64,000 bases of DNA from an uncultured Prevotellaceae bacterium (lineage in GTDB: Bacteria; Bacteroidota; Bacteroidia; Bacteroidales; Bacteroidaceae). Position 1 is the first letter of the stretch. Every line of letters begins with the position of its first letter. Below are positions 36,846 through 57,152 of this stretch, piece by piece. Where the stretch lies: assembly GCA_900318115.1 (NCBI GenBank), contig ONJJ01000011.1, positions 1-64,000 of the forward strand, read 5' to 3'. The notes beneath the pieces were generated by a model. It was not told the DNA's origin, searched no databases, and saw only the letters and a list, made by a program, of their open reading frames with translations. Made by a program: the position numbers and the translations under genes.

Positions 36846-37784
36846 TCACTTTTTCTTCTTCTGCTTCACAAAAACGTCATAGCCCGAAGGCTTGTCGGCA
36901 AAATGCTTGGAAAGTGAATCCTTGTTATTCTGCATCTGACTGAAACTCTCACCAAGGAAATCCAGCCATAGCTGACGCGGAATAGATTTCCCCTCGTTCT
37001 TATAGACCAAGTAGAATGTATATCTTAAATGTGCAACGGGCATGGCTGTAGAAATCTTTGATTCCTGTTTCTTCACGACATCGTTCTCTATAAGGTATTC
37101 CACGGCCTCCATCATCGCGTTGAAATCCCGGGTAGTCATTATGGGGGTTTCGCTATCAGGCAGGGCGCCTTTCATGAACTCCAGGCGTTTCCTTACGCCT
37201 ACCTTTACCTTTATTCTTTCTTGAGGTGAAATGACAGGATTTATCGGGTCGGTATATTCTTTGGGGTTTCCCAATCTGTCGCTCATGTATTTGCCTGTGC
37301 TGATGTACCTCTGTATGTAGATGGCAAAGTCGTCCTCTATATTGCTATCGAAAAGCGTGACAACAGATTGGAGTTCTGAGTGCTCTGCGATTTGGGACAT
37401 AAGTATCTCTGTATGCCTTATTATTCTCCAGTCATCGCTCGCTGTCATGCAGGCAATAATGGAATAGACGATGCATGAAGTGGCCACTTCGAGTTCTTCT
37501 TTCTGAAACGATCTCGACGCTTCTGTGGCCTCGTCTCTCAGCTCGCAGAAGGTGTCGTTCCACATACGGCGCGTTGTCTGGTCTATATTTTCGGGGTCCT
37601 TCAGTATTTGGTCAAAGCCTATGAAGCAGTTGACCCATATTTCCTCCGGCGAGAACCTGAGAGTAGCCATCTGCGTCTCCTGCTCCTTGTAGGCCGCGTC
37701 TATCGTGCGGAAAACCGCATTTCCCTTGAACTTTTCCTTTATGCTCCGCTTACTCTCTGGAGTCAACAATCTTCTCACAATCAT
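36846..37784 (-). CDS. unidentified protein, second gene of a two-gene operon
   Basis: A 312-residue, largely helical, soluble protein with a lysine-rich tail (FVKQKKKK). No motif that I know is visible; landmarks are SPEEIWVNCFIGFDQIL, SCIVYSIIACMTASDD and ISPQERIKVKVGVRKRLEF. It overlaps the upstream gene by 35 bases and ends in a good terminator, so the two are surely one unit. AT-rich composition and rare-looking codons (ATA, AGA) set it apart from flanking core genes. Its position next to a restriction-modification system suggests, but does not show, a defence role. Confidence 0.75.
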   Translation of the reverse strand: MIVRRLLTPESKRSIKEKFKGNAVFRTIDAAYKEQETQMATLRFSPEEIWVNCFIGFDQILKDPENIDQTTRRMWNDTFCELRDEATEASRSFQKEELEVATSCIVYSIIACMTASDDWRIIRHTEILMSQIAEHSELQSVVTLFDSNIEDDFAIYIQRYISTGKYMSDRLGNPKEYTDPINPVISPQERIKVKVGVRKRLEFMKGALPDSETPIMTTRDFNAMMEAVEYLIENDVVKKQESKISTAMPVAHLRYTFYLVYKNEGKSIPRQLWLDFLGESFSQMQNNKDSLSKHFADKPSGYDVFVKQKKKK

Positions 37785-38697
37785 AGTCTGCTATTTGTTT
37801 TCTGATTTCGTCAAGTTTCTCAATCAACACGAATGTCGCTCCATCGCCAATGTCCGCAAGCTGGCCTCTCTCGAAGTCTCTAATCACTCTATCGTCAATA
37901 GAAGCAAAGGCATAGGCAACATCCTTGAAGTTCACCACGCTGGAATTGTAGAAATAATACGATAGCTTATAGTTATTTTGGGCACTTAGAGCAATTATCT
38001 GTGCCCAGTCCTCAATTTTATCGTCGTCCACGTTTATCGGAATCCTCTTGGAACCTGTCAGCGTTATTTTACCTTTCAAGGCATTGACAGCCTGAGTAAA
38101 GAGCATGAGTCCCTGCAGTCGTTCTTTCATTTGCAGAGTGGCATCAATTCCCTTGACTCTGTCTGGATTGGGAAATTCCCATACCACTCTTTTTACCGAG
38201 TCATTATATTTTATGATTCTTTCACGTATGATCTCCTTGAAATTGCTTGCCTGCCATTTTCTCTTGATAACCATTTTCAAGCCATACTCACACAAATGTG
38301 CATCGAATGCCCGTTTGAGATACTTGGCCACCTTGTCTGTATCAGGGCCGAAAGCGTTGTTTTTCTCAATCGCTATCTGACTCACATCAGGCCTGTTGTC
38401 AACTATAACATAACAACCAGGGTGCTCAGTCACCGGATTCCTCTCATGACCTTCGAGTAAAGTCTTGTCCTTCTCGTTGCATAGCTCCCAGACGAACACG
38501 CCATCCCTTCCTATATAATTAAGGTTCGTCAGAAGGATGTCTTCCTTCCTTTTTTTCCCGACAACAGTCAAGCCATCATGCAGCAGATTGCTGATGATTT
38601 CAGTTGCCATATCTATGGCTTTCTTTCCCGTTTCCTTATAAAAGAGGCTTCTGTTGCCTTCTTGGATCTCGTATGAGTAAATTGCATAAACTGCCAT
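37750..38697 (-). CDS. unidentified protein, first gene of a two-gene operon
   Basis: A 315-residue soluble protein that I cannot assign. It starts MAVYAIYSYEIQEGNRSLFY, has HPGCYVIVDNRPDVSQIAIE in the middle and FEFPNP-like VVWEFPNPDRVKGIDATL later. I have a vague memory of related hypothetical proteins in other gut Bacteroidetes with the same VDNRP...AIE and EFPNP blocks, but no named family. It is led by a perfect -7 box and an 8-bp palindrome in the leader. It is divergent from the DNA methylase genes. Confidence 0.78.
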   Translation of the reverse strand: MAVYAIYSYEIQEGNRSLFYKETGKKAIDMATEIISNLLHDGLTVVGKKRKEDILLTNLNYIGRDGVFVWELCNEKDKTLLEGHERNPVTEHPGCYVIVDNRPDVSQIAIEKNNAFGPDTDKVAKYLKRAFDAHLCEYGLKMVIKRKWQASNFKEIIRERIIKYNDSVKRVVWEFPNPDRVKGIDATLQMKERLQGLMLFTQAVNALKGKITLTGSKRIPINVDDDKIEDWAQIIALSAQNNYKLSYYFYNSSVVNFKDVAYAFASIDDRVIRDFERGQLADIGDGATFVLIEKLDEIRKQIADYDCEKIVDSRE

Positions 38698-38720
38698 ATG
38701 TTATAATTAATGTTTACCTG

Positions 38721-38741
38721 GCCAGACCTATCTGGTCTGGC
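38721..38741 (-). promoter_or_regulatory. perfect palindrome in the leader of the two-gene operon
   Basis: GCCAGACC-TATCT-GGTCTGGC: 8 paired bases each side. It lies between the -7 box and the ATG at 38697, so it may be an operator or a leader hairpin. Confidence 0.6.
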
Positions 38742-38753
38742 TTGTTTTGACTG

Positions 38754-38761
38754 CAAAAATA
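38754..38761 (-). promoter_or_regulatory. promoter -7 box for the two-gene operon
   Basis: TATTTTTG on the minus strand, 57 bases before the ATG, matching TAnnTTTG. Confidence 0.7.
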
Positions 38762-38825
38762 CAAAAATATTTAGAGAAAAAGAATCTTTTTAGCCAATAG
38801 TTATTCTATTATCGTCTTTTTTCGC

Positions 38826-38833
38826 TATCTTTG
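38826..38833 (+). promoter_or_regulatory. promoter -7 box for the methylase operon
   Basis: TATCTTTG, a perfect match. It predicts a transcript starting near 38838-38840 and hence a leader of about 275 bases before the ATG at 39114. Confidence 0.7.
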
Positions 38834-39138
38834 CACCCGAACACCGCCAATATAGGCCTTAGCGAAGGTGTGCGGTGTGACTTTTGTGGGTGAAATAGAT
38901 AGTTGTATCTATATTCTATAGAGGCTCCCGTAAATTCCGACCAGAATAGTAACGAACCTCATGGAATCAGGATACACCTGTGATAGGGTGTACCTGTTCC
39001 ATATATGTTTCGTTACGGGTCCTTGGTCGGATACCCAGCGGGAGGCATATACAGGAACGTGGTACACTTTCTTAATACCTGAATGTTTTCGTTTCACGCT
39101 AAAATCCGACCAAATGACAGTAACGAACGAAGAACAGG
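38834..39138 (+). promoter_or_regulatory. structured leader RNA of the restriction-modification operon
   Basis: Three hairpins can form. I: ACACCGC (38841-38847) with GCGGTGT (38872-38878). II: ATAGATA with TATCTAT (about 38895-38912). III: a long stem in which TCCGACCA (38936-38943) pairs with TGGTCGGA (39024-39031), GTAACGAA (38949-38956) with TTCGTTAC (39009-39016), and TGGA.CAGG.TACACC with GGTGTACCTG.TCCA inside. The start-codon region repeats the left arm: TCCGACCA (39105-39112), GTAACGAA (39120-39127), GAACAGG (39132-39138). The right arm can therefore pair with either, and the second choice covers the ATG at 39114. Confidence 0.6.
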
Positions 39139-39800
39139 AAAGACAGGTTGTTTCACGCCAGCGAGTGGCTGACCACGGCGAGGTATATACTGCCAAGCGG
39201 GAGGTCAACGCGATGCTCGATTTGGTGAAGGAGGAGACGGAGCGCATTGACTCGCGTTTCCTGGAACCTGCGTGCGGCACGGGGAACTTCCTCGTGGAAA
39301 TCCTCAGCCGAAAGATGGAAGTGGCGAGGCGGCGCTTTGCCCGCAACCGCTTCGAATATGAACTCGCCTCGGCACAGGCCATCAGCTCGATCTATGGCAT
39401 TGAGCTGCTGCCCGACAATGTGGAGAGTTGCCGCGAGAGGCTTTTGCAGCAATATCTTGATACTTACCGCCAGCACCTCGGCACAGATGCTGCGGCTGAA
39501 CAGCATCGATGCATCCGCTTCCTGCTGGAGAAGAATATCCTTTGCGGCGACGCCCTGACGATGCTGCAGCAGGACGGCACGCCCATCACCTTCTGCGAAT
39601 GGACGTTCATCGGCATGGACGGCAAGGTGAAGCGGCGCGACTTTGAGCTGGCAGAGCTGCTGCGCAACGTGGAGTTCGACAAACCCAAGCCGGGCGAGTA
39701 CGGCAACCTCTTCAGCGATCTGGACGAGCCCGTGTTCGTGCATCTGCCCAAACGTGAATACCCCCTGACCGATTACCTTAATCTTCCTGACTATGAATAA
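39114..39800 (+). CDS. DNA methyltransferase subunit 1 (SAM-binding type)
   Basis: A 228-residue protein of the small N6-adenine methylase family that precedes Eco57I-like methylases in Bacteroidetes. The SAM-binding motif I is FLEPACGTGNFLVEIL (about residues 42-57). The usual catalytic NPPY motif is absent; it is found in the next gene instead. Other landmarks are QRVADHGEVYTAKREV at the N-terminus and NILCGDALTML. I start at 39114 (MTVTNEEQERQVV): the longer frame to 38961 would translate the leader hairpin. It overlaps the next gene by 8 bases. Confidence 0.82.
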   Translation: MTVTNEEQERQVVSRQRVADHGEVYTAKREVNAMLDLVKEETERIDSRFLEPACGTGNFLVEILSRKMEVARRRFARNRFEYELASAQAISSIYGIELLPDNVESCRERLLQQYLDTYRQHLGTDAAAEQHRCIRFLLEKNILCGDALTMLQQDGTPITFCEWTFIGMDGKVKRRDFELAELLRNVEFDKPKPGEYGNLFSDLDEPVFVHLPKREYPLTDYLNLPDYE

Positions 39801-41406: not shown

Positions 41407-41949
41407 ATGCATCACATCAATCCAAAAGATCCATTCTTCACACCTGAAGTGGTGGAATACATGCGGCAGAAGAACCTGGAAAACATCTCCTACGAAGAGA
41501 ACGTGGAGGTATTGCAGGCGATCATAGATGTGTATTCCCTGAAACCCGAGATCCGCTACGATTGGACGGGCAATGACGTGGTTCATGAGGCCGAAGCGGT
41601 GTACTTCTCCCGGAAGGAGCTCAAGGCAAAGCGCTTGGAGGCAGCCAAACTGGTGGAAGTGGATGGTAACGTTGTCACTTTGGACGAGGTATTCGCCATC
41701 CTATCGCACAGGGACAAAGGCTTCAAGGAAGAGTATCTGGAGAATGAAGCTTTGGCCCTGAAGAATTGCCCTGACCACGTGGAGAAGTTGCGTCGTGACT
41801 TCTTTGTTACAGGCTACTATCCGGGACGTGACCAAGGACCTCAGACCGAAGAGGAATGGGAAGAACTGCTCGCAGAGATAGATGAGGAGGATTGCATTCC
41901 TGACGAGGAAGTACGTCGAATGTGTGAAGAGTGGCTGTCATGCGCGTAA
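41407..41949 (+). CDS. putative antitoxin partner of the ParE-like toxin (180 residues)
   Basis: A 180-residue acidic protein overlapping the toxin gene by 10 bases. It opens MHHINPKDPFFTPEVVEYMR and ends with a strongly acidic segment (EEEWEELLAEIDEED) of the kind that wraps around RelE/ParE toxins. No DNA-binding domain is obvious and it is about twice the usual antitoxin length. The promoter is its own, so the pair is a cassette placed between methylase and helicase genes. I do not recognise the family; antitoxin function is inferred from position. Confidence 0.65.
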   Translation: MHHINPKDPFFTPEVVEYMRQKNLENISYEENVEVLQAIIDVYSLKPEIRYDWTGNDVVHEAEAVYFSRKELKAKRLEAAKLVEVDGNVVTLDEVFAILSHRDKGFKEEYLENEALALKNCPDHVEKLRRDFFVTGYYPGRDQGPQTEEEWEELLAEIDEEDCIPDEEVRRMCEEWLSCA

Positions 41950-42224
41950 TCTGGTCCAAACGGGCTATTGCTCAACGCCTGCAACAAGAAAAGTGGTTGG
42001 CAGATATCAGAGGCTTGGATTTTGCCCGCACCTTTAATGCCAATATAGACAAAGCTATTGACCAAATTGCCCAAATGCCGGATATTGGGCAAAGAGAGAA
42101 GACGGCACGGGGCGGAATGAGTGTTCGTTCCGTGCTGACACACCCCAAATGCCGCATCGTCTATGGGTATGATGACAAGACTGTTGTTATCATCAGTCTT
42201 AAGTTCGCGATGATGCTCGAATAG
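41940..42224 (+). CDS. RelE/ParE family toxin
   Basis: A 94-residue protein of the RelE/ParE superfamily: MRVIWSKRAIAQRL at the start (the usual strand-helix opening), AIDQIAQMPDIGQ in the middle, and the closing strands VRSVLTHPKCRIVYGYDD and KTVVIISL. Members either cleave ribosome-bound mRNA or poison gyrase; the sequence is nearer ParE in style. A GTG at 41931 is an alternative start. The gene ends 54 bases before the helicase ATG. Confidence 0.82.
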   Translation: MRVIWSKRAIAQRLQQEKWLADIRGLDFARTFNANIDKAIDQIAQMPDIGQREKTARGGMSVRSVLTHPKCRIVYGYDDKTVVIISLKFAMMLE

Positions 42225-45371: not shown

Positions 45372-45713
45372 TCAGTTCTCTCCCAGCAGAGCCTTCAGTT
45401 CCTGATGCAGTAGTGGCAGGTGGTTGATGACGATGCTCCAGAGGATGTCGGAGGAGAGGCTGTCGTAGCCGTGAATGATGTAATTGCGCGTGTCCACAAT
45501 CTTGCGGGCATTGGTGATTGGGATGTCGGGCATCTCCCGGAGAACGCGGTTCATGGCTTCGCCCATGATCTCTACGTTCCGCTCAACGGCACGTCGGAGC
45601 ATGAGGTCCTTGTTGAAGACCTCGAAGAGCTTGGGCTTGCCTTCGAAATAGCTGTTTATTTCCTCCACGGCTCCGAGAACATCATAGAGGTATTTCAGTA
45701 ATTTCTCATCCAT
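45372..45713 (-). CDS. HepT-like protein (DUF86) of a MntA-HepT module
   Basis: A 113-residue helical protein of the HEPN/HepT family. The RNase motif Rx4-6H appears as RNYIIHGYDSL (about residues 80-90). HepT toxins are ribonucleases silenced when the partner MntA adds AMP groups to a conserved tyrosine, here the Y in HGY. I start at 45713 (MDEKLLKYLYDVL) because it overlaps the mntA stop by 8 bases and matches family length; the longer frame upstream translates the antisense of nothing family-like. Confidence 0.85.
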   Translation of the reverse strand: MDEKLLKYLYDVLGAVEEINSYFEGKPKLFEVFNKDLMLRRAVERNVEIMGEAMNRVLREMPDIPITNARKIVDTRNYIIHGYDSLSSDILWSIVINHLPLLHQELKALLGEN

Positions 45714-46011
45714 AGACGACGGTTTTTGTGCGTTCGACGTTGCGCTTGAAGATGGGATTTCGGATGGCTTGTTCTTCCACGAGGTCCACACTTCGGCCGA
45801 GTGCTGCTTCTAGCGAGTGCTTCAGTTCGAAGAAGTTGGTGAGGTAGTCGGGGATGACGGCGGTGTCGAAGTCCACGAGGAAGTCGACGTCGCTGTGGTC
45901 GGTGAAGCGGGGAGTGAGCACGGAACCGAAGGCATAGAGATGGCGCACCCCGTGCTTGCGGCAGAGGGCTGTGATGTGGTCGTGGGTGCGTTCGAGGATG
46001 TTACTCTTCAT
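45706..46011 (-). CDS. MntA-like minimal nucleotidyltransferase antitoxin
   Basis: A 101-residue nucleotidyltransferase. The signature GSxx...DxD reads YAFGSVLTPRFTDHSDVDFL (about residues 24-43) with the catalytic aspartates. A third acid is in RSVDLVEEQAI. It inactivates HepT by AMPylation. The start at 46011 (MKSNILERTHDHI) is chosen over the upstream in-frame ATG because that extension would cover the promoter repeat. Confidence 0.85.
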   Translation of the reverse strand: MKSNILERTHDHITALCRKHGVRHLYAFGSVLTPRFTDHSDVDFLVDFDTAVIPDYLTNFFELKHSLEAALGRSVDLVEEQAIRNPIFKRNVERTKTVVYG

Positions 46012-46040
46012 AGGTTCGCGTAGCTTTTGTTTCGTTTTCC

Positions 46041-46076
46041 GCCGCAAAAATACAAATAATTTCTGATTCGCCGCAC
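46041..46076. repeat. 36-bp promoter repeat, copy B
   Basis: Identical to 45180-45215 and placed at the same strand in front of the mntA-like gene, including its -7 box. Confidence 0.85.
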
Positions 46077-46150
46077 GTTTTGACAAAAAAAAGTGGAGCG
46101 AGGGGGCAAAAAGGGAACGAAATAAGGGATGTGAGGACGTGCATCGTGCC

Positions 46151-56913: not shown

Positions 56914-56984
56914 GTGTTTTTCATGGTATTAGATTTAAGGTTAATGAAAGGATAGGTTGTCGTGAGACAACCTTCCTTTTTTTG
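56914..56984 (+). ncRNA. candidate small RNA or leader of about 70 bases with terminator
   Basis: From the promoter, a short segment (GTGTTTTTCATGGTATTAG, then ATTTAAGGTTAATG) runs into a terminator: AGGTTGTC (56954-56961) and GACAACCT (56966-56973) around a GTGA loop, flanked by AAGGA/TTCC and followed by seven T. The next gene, leuB, begins over 200 bases on and has its own -7 box. I recall very similar short segments elsewhere in Bacteroidales genomes but cannot verify it. Confidence 0.6.
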
Positions 56985-57152
56985 TGTACCCCTATCTTTC
57001 TGCCCATTACTTTTGGTGCCCCTGTCTTTTTGCAGCCCAATCGCCGCTTAAAATGTGTTTCATTTGCCTGCCGCAGGTGCAGAAATGCTTAAAGTTTCTG
57101 CTTCGCAGCCCAAAGAATTTGGCTTTTCGGCTCGTAAATGAAGACTTTTTCG

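Follow-up and report, generated by a model that had tools for sequence, protein, structure and literature searches.

The leader of the methylase operon and its surroundings

Within the window, i.e. the whole stretch of 64,000 nucleotides that has been analysed here, a methylase-helicase operon is located on the forward strand; its first gene (39114..39800) encodes a DNA methylase, matched by the Pfam profile MmeI_Mtase below the curated cut-off, and is preceded by a structured leader. Two overlapping minus-strand genes without a Pfam match (36846-38697) are located divergently from the operon, and a ParE-type toxin gene (41931-42224), together with a small upstream gene without a Pfam match, is found inside it (41407-42224). 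Elsewhere in the window, we have noted a HepT-like gene and a nucleotidyltransferase gene on the minus strand (45372-46086), which we take to be a likely toxin-antitoxin pair, and a small RNA of the FopS family (56914-56986; RF04319, 79.2 bits).

The elements of the leader are all located on the plus strand. The sequence TATCTTTG at 38826..38833 is a box of the TAnnTTTG type, which we take to be the -7 promoter element of the Bacteroidota, recognised from its sequence and from the enrichment of TAnnTTTG in other members of the family; transcription would therefore start near 38838-38842. A motif of this type is also named in the available part of PMC9723704. The 5' hairpin contains a small hairpin with an AGCG loop (CCTTAGCGAAGG, 38857..38868; called from its sequence and from the enrichment of AGNG loops), and a linker (GACTTTTGTGGGTGAAAT, 38879..38896), recognised from its sequence and from a related motif in other members, is situated ahead of hairpin P1 (38895..38912); P1 has been placed with the covariance model R2 and varies with its pairing preserved outside the window clade, being invariant inside it. 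An alternative 5' domain (38921..38960), supported by locus-matched pairing, is closed by stem P2 (GAGGCTC at 38921-38927 and GAACCTC at 38954-38960, with one mismatch) and encloses the left arm, strand A (38925..38956), which comprises CTCCCG, TCCGACCA and GTAACGAA and has been identified from its sequence, by a repeat finder and by its covariation with A'. An apical hairpin (GATACACC / GGTGTACC, 38971..38994), predicted by folding and covarying outside the window clade, is followed by the right arm, strand A' (39009..39044), which is the proposed output strand and is supported by the repeat finder, permutation tests, covariation and constrained folds.

Between A' and the gene, the sequence GGAACGTGGTACACTTTCTT (39054..39073) reads as a degenerate terminator-like hairpin with a U tract when it is aligned by eye with GGAAAGCGGTACGCTTTCTTT of the leaders L234-L237. 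The minimum free energy fold, in which A pairs with A', predicts a start-codon hairpin at 39086..39133; a stem around the ATG is also visible, by eye, in the leaders L231-L238 that carry a copy of A''. This third strand, A'' (39104..39127), contains the ATG (39114-39116) and is supported by the repeat finder, constrained folds and exact complements. The positions of A, of A' and of the copy at the ATG agree with those given in an earlier sequence-only reading of this DNA; P1 and P2 come in addition to the elements listed there. A conserved leader peptide has been considered and rejected: an ATG at 38961 begins a frame (38961-39800) that runs open into the methylase in the window and in two relatives (L033, L034), but is not open in three others (L035-L037).

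Two mutually exclusive pairings of the right arm

The leader is predicted to fold far more stably than its composition would imply: the stretch 38834-39140 reaches a minimum free energy of -105.2 kcal/mol, a value that none of 100 dinucleotide shuffles has attained (z -5.68), in line with the earlier claim that the leader is structured. The repeat finder reports an inverted repeat of 24 nt, 79% complementary, between 39009-39032 and 39104-39127. By exact matching, TCCGACCA (38936-38943) and ATCCGACCAA (39104-39113) are both complementary to TTGGTCGGAT (39023-39032), and GTAACGAA occurs at 38949-38956 and again at 39120-39127, its complement being TTCGTTAC (39009-39016). Three words had been proposed to recur at the start region; for one of them, GAACAGG, no conserved role in the pairing is apparent. 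Of the pairing at the start, relatives preserve the TCCGACCAA part, and the GTAACGAA part incompletely.

The best fold of 38837-39150 (-105.9 kcal/mol) contains A:A'; when the A:A' pairs are forbidden, the best fold (-101.9 kcal/mol) contains A':A'', which encloses the ATG. The gap between these two global folds is 4 kcal/mol, and both are thus plausible by energy. The right arm had been thought able to pair either with the left arm or with the ATG region, but not with both, and a thermodynamic comparison of the two states had been suggested; the comparison yields both states, as two near-equal folds. When A pairs with A', the start-codon hairpin is predicted to have a weak inner pairing that takes up the A and the T of the ATG, so that the start would not be wholly free there. 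A further exclusion should hold between P2 and the full A:A' hairpin, since the 3' side of P2 is located inside that hairpin.

Compensatory changes among related methylase leaders

From the window clade, 12 distinct leaders have been compared, the sources of which, where titled, are mostly Prevotella or Bacteroidaceae of ruminants. Across these 12 leaders, 8 of the 9 pairs in the outer stem of hairpin III and 7 of the 9 pairs in its inner stem have changed on both sides, with no shuffle out of 300 scoring as high for either stem. P1, the loop-3 helix and the apical helix are near-invariant (300, 32 and 27 of 300 shuffles as high, respectively) and say little within the clade, as there is hardly any variation.

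More distant methylase leaders often keep the order of the elements with little of the sequence, as judged by eye; in three of them (L006 (= L040), L039 and L041) the element is absent by eye, and it is therefore not universal in homologous operons. Homologous leaders without the repeats, or without compensatory changes, had been named as evidence that would speak against the sequence-only reading: three leaders do lack the element, and the window clade is rich in compensatory changes. Another three methylase leaders (L015, L042, L044) have P1/P2-like elements and a far longer apical region, also by eye.

Distribution of related leaders

A covariance model of homologous methylase leaders, another suggestion made from the sequence, has been built from ten leaders that are all outside the window clade (model R1), and A:A' covaries: in 98 distinct R1-type rows, 92.5% of the A:A' cells are paired and 38 of 40 pairs have changed on both sides, with a covariation score of 0.649 versus 0.227 in shuffled and at most 0.107 in slid versions, the rows having been aligned to R1 itself, which biases them towards the structure of the model, and two of them coming from its training set. 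These training loci, L101 and L127 (= locus of L020), are also contained in the test sets of 99 rows and of 80 proteins. A second model, R2, has been built from the window clade alone; in 34 R2-type rows, 92.0% of the A:A' cells are paired and 48 of 53 pairs have changed on both sides (9 of 43 rows removed as opposite-strand matches; non-redundant n=20). Outside the window clade, P1 and the apical hairpin vary with their pairing kept, in rows that include opposite-strand ones.

At E≤0.01, R1 has matches in 196 of the 301 genomes sampled from the bacterial family, spread over 22 of 30 genera, with up to at least 10 copies per genome where 10 candidates were scored; copy numbers are lower bounds, because 9-10 candidates per genome were scored in the R1 and R2 scans of approximately 300 genomes. 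At E≤0.001, R1 matches 17 of 247 genomes drawn from the phylum and none of 39 genomes outside Bacteroidota, all of which carry methylase homologues, and at E≤1 it has no match in 13 loci of such homologues. Eight R1 matches at E≤1 fall in the window's own genome, and six of these have E≤0.002. With R2, leaders are found in 21 of the 301 genomes, other genera included. To look for a link to phages, viral contigs were searched with one exact P1 pattern, which occurs in one contig.

R1 aligns with the window leader over its full length and places its elements correctly, but the score is weak (8.6 bits; E 0.04 in 421 bases); the leader is not reported when R1 scans the whole window, and none of 20 R2-type loci is detected by R1. 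At E≤1 in 95 other loci, R2 matches L138 (E 7e-6), L154 (0.22) and L216 (0.56), all of them on R1 matches, and L138 is the only clear sequence bridge between R1-type and R2-type leaders. The window leader has the features of the family, i.e. a covarying A:A' with P1 upstream, A'' complementary to A', and P2 as an alternative; by its architecture, it appears to be a member of a large family of structured RNAs of Bacteroidia. We treat R1-type and R2-type leaders as two branches of one architecture; they may well share a common descent, which is argued mainly by this architecture.

Competing strands matched to their own locus

The pairing of A' with the region downstream has been compared between own and foreign partners in 60 R1-type leaders, obtained from 99 rows by the removal of redundancy (74) and by an ORF gap of 40-160 nt; the window clade is outside these, and outside the sets for the promoter-box, terminator and constrained-fold counts. 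A' pairs with its own downstream region at -27.1 kcal/mol and with foreign ones at -19.2 kcal/mol (0 of 2000 permutations); the pairing of A with A' is also locus-matched (0 of 2000). For A against the downstream region, as a control, the count is 1421 of 2000, and for A' against the reversed downstream region it is 58 of 2000, a weak residue. The own A'' is the best partner in only 12 of the 60 leaders and within the best 5% in 26, so that the A':A'' signal is strong on average and not per leader. In 20 non-redundant R2-type leaders, A' pairs with its own start region at -25.2 and with foreign ones at -20.6 (0 of 5000 permutations; own best in 6 of 20), and the control with A gives 4690 of 5000.

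Constrained folds of the same 60 R1-type leaders lead in the same direction: forbidding A:A' costs a median of 6.3 kcal/mol when the own downstream region is present and 15.9 when a foreign one takes its place, the own cost being lower in 58 of 60, and a cost of at most 5 kcal/mol occurs with the own region in 24 of 60 leaders and with a foreign region in 1 of 60. As the own-region cost is almost always the lower, near-equal competing folds are a locus-matched property.

An exact complement of A', 9-13 nt long and ending at most 3 nt from the ATG, is found in 18 of 32 R2-type leaders (L138 and L233 (no ORF) left out): in 11 of the 13 window-type methylase leaders, where it measures 9-11 nt, and in 7 of the 19 others (L231, L232, L234, L236, L237, L238, L240); the other 14 of the 32 are without a long A'' at the ATG. 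The downstream coding sequences are unrelated, and the copy at the start codon therefore belongs to the RNA element. In R1-type leaders, A'' is usually located farther upstream of the start, by eye. P2 is locus-matched as well, at -7.78 own versus -5.33 foreign in the 60 R1-type leaders (0 of 2000; own best in 5 of 60) and at -9.61 versus -7.55 in 30 R2-type leaders (0 of 5000; own best in 3 of 30), the latter set remaining after 10 of 43 rows, and then redundant ones, were left out.

Terminator-like hairpins and upstream motifs

A terminator-like hairpin with a U tract (dG ≤ -8 kcal/mol) follows A' in 52 of 84 leaders, versus 11 of 163 coding stretches; five loci and then redundant ones were left out of this set, and the window clade is not among the 84. 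Of 62 hairpins with dG ≤ -6, 55 have their start within the right arm, and in 28 of the 55, counted by hand, this start is 7-9 nt from the end of the arm; such an overlap is what an antiterminator/terminator pair needs. A mutually exclusive antiterminator and terminator are thus predicted for the family, but not for the window itself, where GGAACGTGGTACACTTTCTT is degenerate and is not called in the terminator scan; transcriptional control may therefore be lost there.

Upstream of P1, a TAnnTTTG box is located within 160 nt in 102 of 116 other members (a set that includes the wrongly placed L239), versus 45 of 551 coding pieces. Two further motifs are found ahead of P1: a hairpin of 4 bp whose loop is AGNG, in 29 of 114 members versus 2 of 442 coding pieces, and the linker motif, in 45 of 114 versus 32 of 442, three loci and those with short upstream sequence having been left out; both are candidate binding sites.

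Genes behind the leaders

The longest sense ORF has been taken as the first gene of each locus, so that some assignments are wrong; 6 of 97 loci have no ORF under this rule. The first genes of 80 non-redundant loci (three loci left out, then redundancy), among the 25 of 91 Pfam families listed and with overlapping counts, include EcoRI methylases (8), MmeI methylases (7), SNF2 (6), ResIII (6), N6_Mtase (5), acyltransferase-3 (5), Eco57I (4), N6_N4 methylases (3), HsdM_N (3), PAP2 (3), PLD (3), D12 (2), PAPS reductase (2), glycosyltransferase-2 (2) and sulfatase (2); the share of methylases may be inflated, as R1 was built from methylase leaders. In the PADLOC result, the 25 models listed, out of 156, include methylases of types I, II and III. 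First genes that were scanned individually encode SNF2 or ResIII helicases, HsdM, DUF4011, MBOAT and acyltransferase-3 proteins, and those of L132 and L196 have no family match. In the window's own genome, two EcoRI-type methylases, an SNF2/PLD protein and proteins with phosphatase-N or Big_2 domains are located behind the R1 matches, and a C5 methylase is located behind the weakest of the RNA matches.

Behind R2-type leaders, we have found a D12 DNA methylase (L227), a lipid A acyltransferase (L231), an Mrr/ResIII nuclease-helicase (L232), a sulfatase/EptA-type protein (L234), an acyltransferase-3 protein (L240), proteins with a PAPS-reductase domain (L235, L241) and a DUF4007 protein (L242), and no family match for the first genes of L243 and L244. 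Five R2-type loci with DUF4007 or PAPS-reductase-domain genes (L242, L244, L235, L241, L246) are, we assume, possibly DNA sulphur-modification systems. At L014 (1501-3074) and L125 (416-3352), the leader architecture is followed by genes for a membrane protein, a glycosyltransferase and a small membrane protein, which we take to be a gtr-like operon; class-level members presumably stand before lipoprotein-like and SusC-like genes, as judged by eye. The role of the leader had been tied to the timing of the methylase against the nuclease, a link that finds no support here: since unrelated genes follow the same kind of leader, its function is not specific to restriction-modification.

A proposed switch and its alternatives

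Comparison across the loci shows three predicted helices that compete around strand A', with a terminator-like hairpin in most of the sampled R1-type and R2-type leaders. We consider it probable, at about two chances in three, that the window leader is a cis-acting, bistable 5' leader RNA, i.e. an attenuator in which A' would serve as the single output strand, and one copy of a family in Bacteroidia, as the folding models and the sequence comparisons suggest. An attenuator or a translational switch had already been proposed, and the exclusive pairings, the compensatory changes and the presence of A'' at the ATG in 11 of 13 window-type methylase leaders argue for such an architecture; our confidence is tempered by the partial pairing of the ATG in the predicted ON fold and by the three homologous methylase leaders without the element.

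The switch would work as follows. When A pairs with A', the terminator would be denied A', A'' would leave the start unmasked and the operon would be read (ON). When the 5' domain closed by P2 holds A, A' would be free and the terminator could form (OFF, level one); in the branch of the window, the free A' could also pair with A'' and mask the start of the transcripts that have read through (OFF, level two). With a degenerate terminator of its own, the window leader may depend solely on the masking of its start codon.

The alternative that survives best, although we regard it as unlikely, is a processive antitermination RNA: the leader, alone or with a NusG-type factor (e.g. of the UpxY family), would modify RNA polymerase for the read-through of leader terminators and of long foreign operons, and the rearrangement of A, A' and A'' would free an active 5' domain. 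The terminator-like hairpins of the leaders and the long defence and surface-gene operons downstream fit this explanation, as do the UpxY proteins of Bacteroides, which, according to the available part of PMC7315117, keep the transcription of capsule operons from ending early in the untranslated region; however, there is no NusG-like gene among the first genes listed (25 of 91 Pfam families), and the locus-matched A'' would be superfluous.

A riboswitch, in which the 5' domain (P1, P2, P3) would bind a metabolite and A/A'/A'' would be the expression platform, seems improbable to us: a covarying alternative 5' domain, P2, is indeed located ahead of a switching platform, but the loop that P2 closes is variable in sequence among the leaders, with no invariant pocket by eye, the downstream genes have no metabolite in common, and no Rfam riboswitch matches. 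Equally improbable is a static structure, in which the hairpins would only shield the 5' end of the mRNA or insulate the operon and the likeness of A'' would be a by-product; such a structure would account for the very stable folds (z -5.68), but not for near-equal competing folds that are tied, in 58 of 60 leaders, to the downstream strand of the same locus, nor for the covariation of both P2 and A:A', which share one strand. A DNA-level element, with the repeats as sites for a regulator, a methylase or a recombinase, is very improbable: the repeats are indeed palindromic and recurrent, and the genes behind them often move between genomes, but the DNA-target reading that had been offered as an alternative is disfavoured by the promoter box upstream on the same strand (102 of 116) and by the many G-U pairs on the transcribed strand (e.g., at two pairs, UG in 50 of 98 rows and GU in 52), and U tracts on the transcribed strand and repeated words that differ among loci also stand against it.

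Under the attenuator reading, our preferred guess for the signal is a shared trans-acting factor that would bind the 5' hairpin, the linker, P1 and P2. A wider proposal, which we offer only tentatively, is a new class of regulatory RNA in Bacteroidia made up of three-strand switches, variable in sequence and conserved in architecture, with several copies per genome, in which one strand would control both transcription and the start codon, and one shared signal (e.g. phage attack or envelope stress) would serve DNA-modification, defence and envelope-modifying operons. The RNA family has no Rfam match at the gathering level, occurs in 196 of 301 sampled genomes and precedes genes of restriction, defence and lipopolysaccharide modification. 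Should it switch in the way that its structure suggests, phage defence and surface identity across Bacteroidia, gut Bacteroides relatives included, would be subject to a widespread RNA control, and silent periods of such operons would become testable. The family also provides many natural RNAs with matched competing strands, which are useful for studies of co-transcriptional folding.

Comparison with known RNAs and regulators

At the gathering score, Rfam has no match at the element in the window or in 20 loci; in E-value mode, the region 38700-39250 gives two chance-level matches, of which KCNQ1OT1_1, at 8.8 bits against a gathering score of 70, covers 38768-38924 and with it part of the leader, and further sets of 10 and 11 loci give no gathering-score match at the element. 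A literature search by title and abstract opening, with subscription literature mostly outside it, has found no published description of the leader family. Flavo-1 RNA (RF01705) resembles the leaders, in the available parts of PMC2864571 and PMC9723704, in being a repeated, structured RNA of Bacteroidetes without an assigned role; the leaders differ from it in that Rfam reports no Flavo-1 match for 11 class-level loci at E≤1, most of which come from other bacterial families than that of the window, or for 10 further loci at E≤0.5. The candidates HMP2_4205 and HMP_4078 (132 and 109 bp), as described in the available part of PMC8040213, are also palindromic and structured and come from Bacteroidetes, HMP2_4205 being predicted as a terminator near TPR genes; compared by description only, members of the leader family may be among the unnamed candidates of that study.

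By analogy, attenuation would be the closest known kind of control and the control of capsule operons by UpxY the closest known biology. In transcription attenuators, an antiterminator and a terminator compete; the leaders share with them a stem that has sequence in common with a following terminator-like hairpin, and a position ahead of an operon, but differ in having a third strand, which is matched to the locus and lies on the start codon or close to it, in their many copies before unrelated genes and in the degenerate terminator of the window. As to the UpxY-controlled capsule leaders of Bacteroides, in the available part of PMC7315117, the upxY genes head their own capsule operons, while none has been noted among the first genes listed beside the leaders described here, which sets the two apart by gene context; they have in common the Bacteroidales, surface operons and premature termination in the untranslated region.
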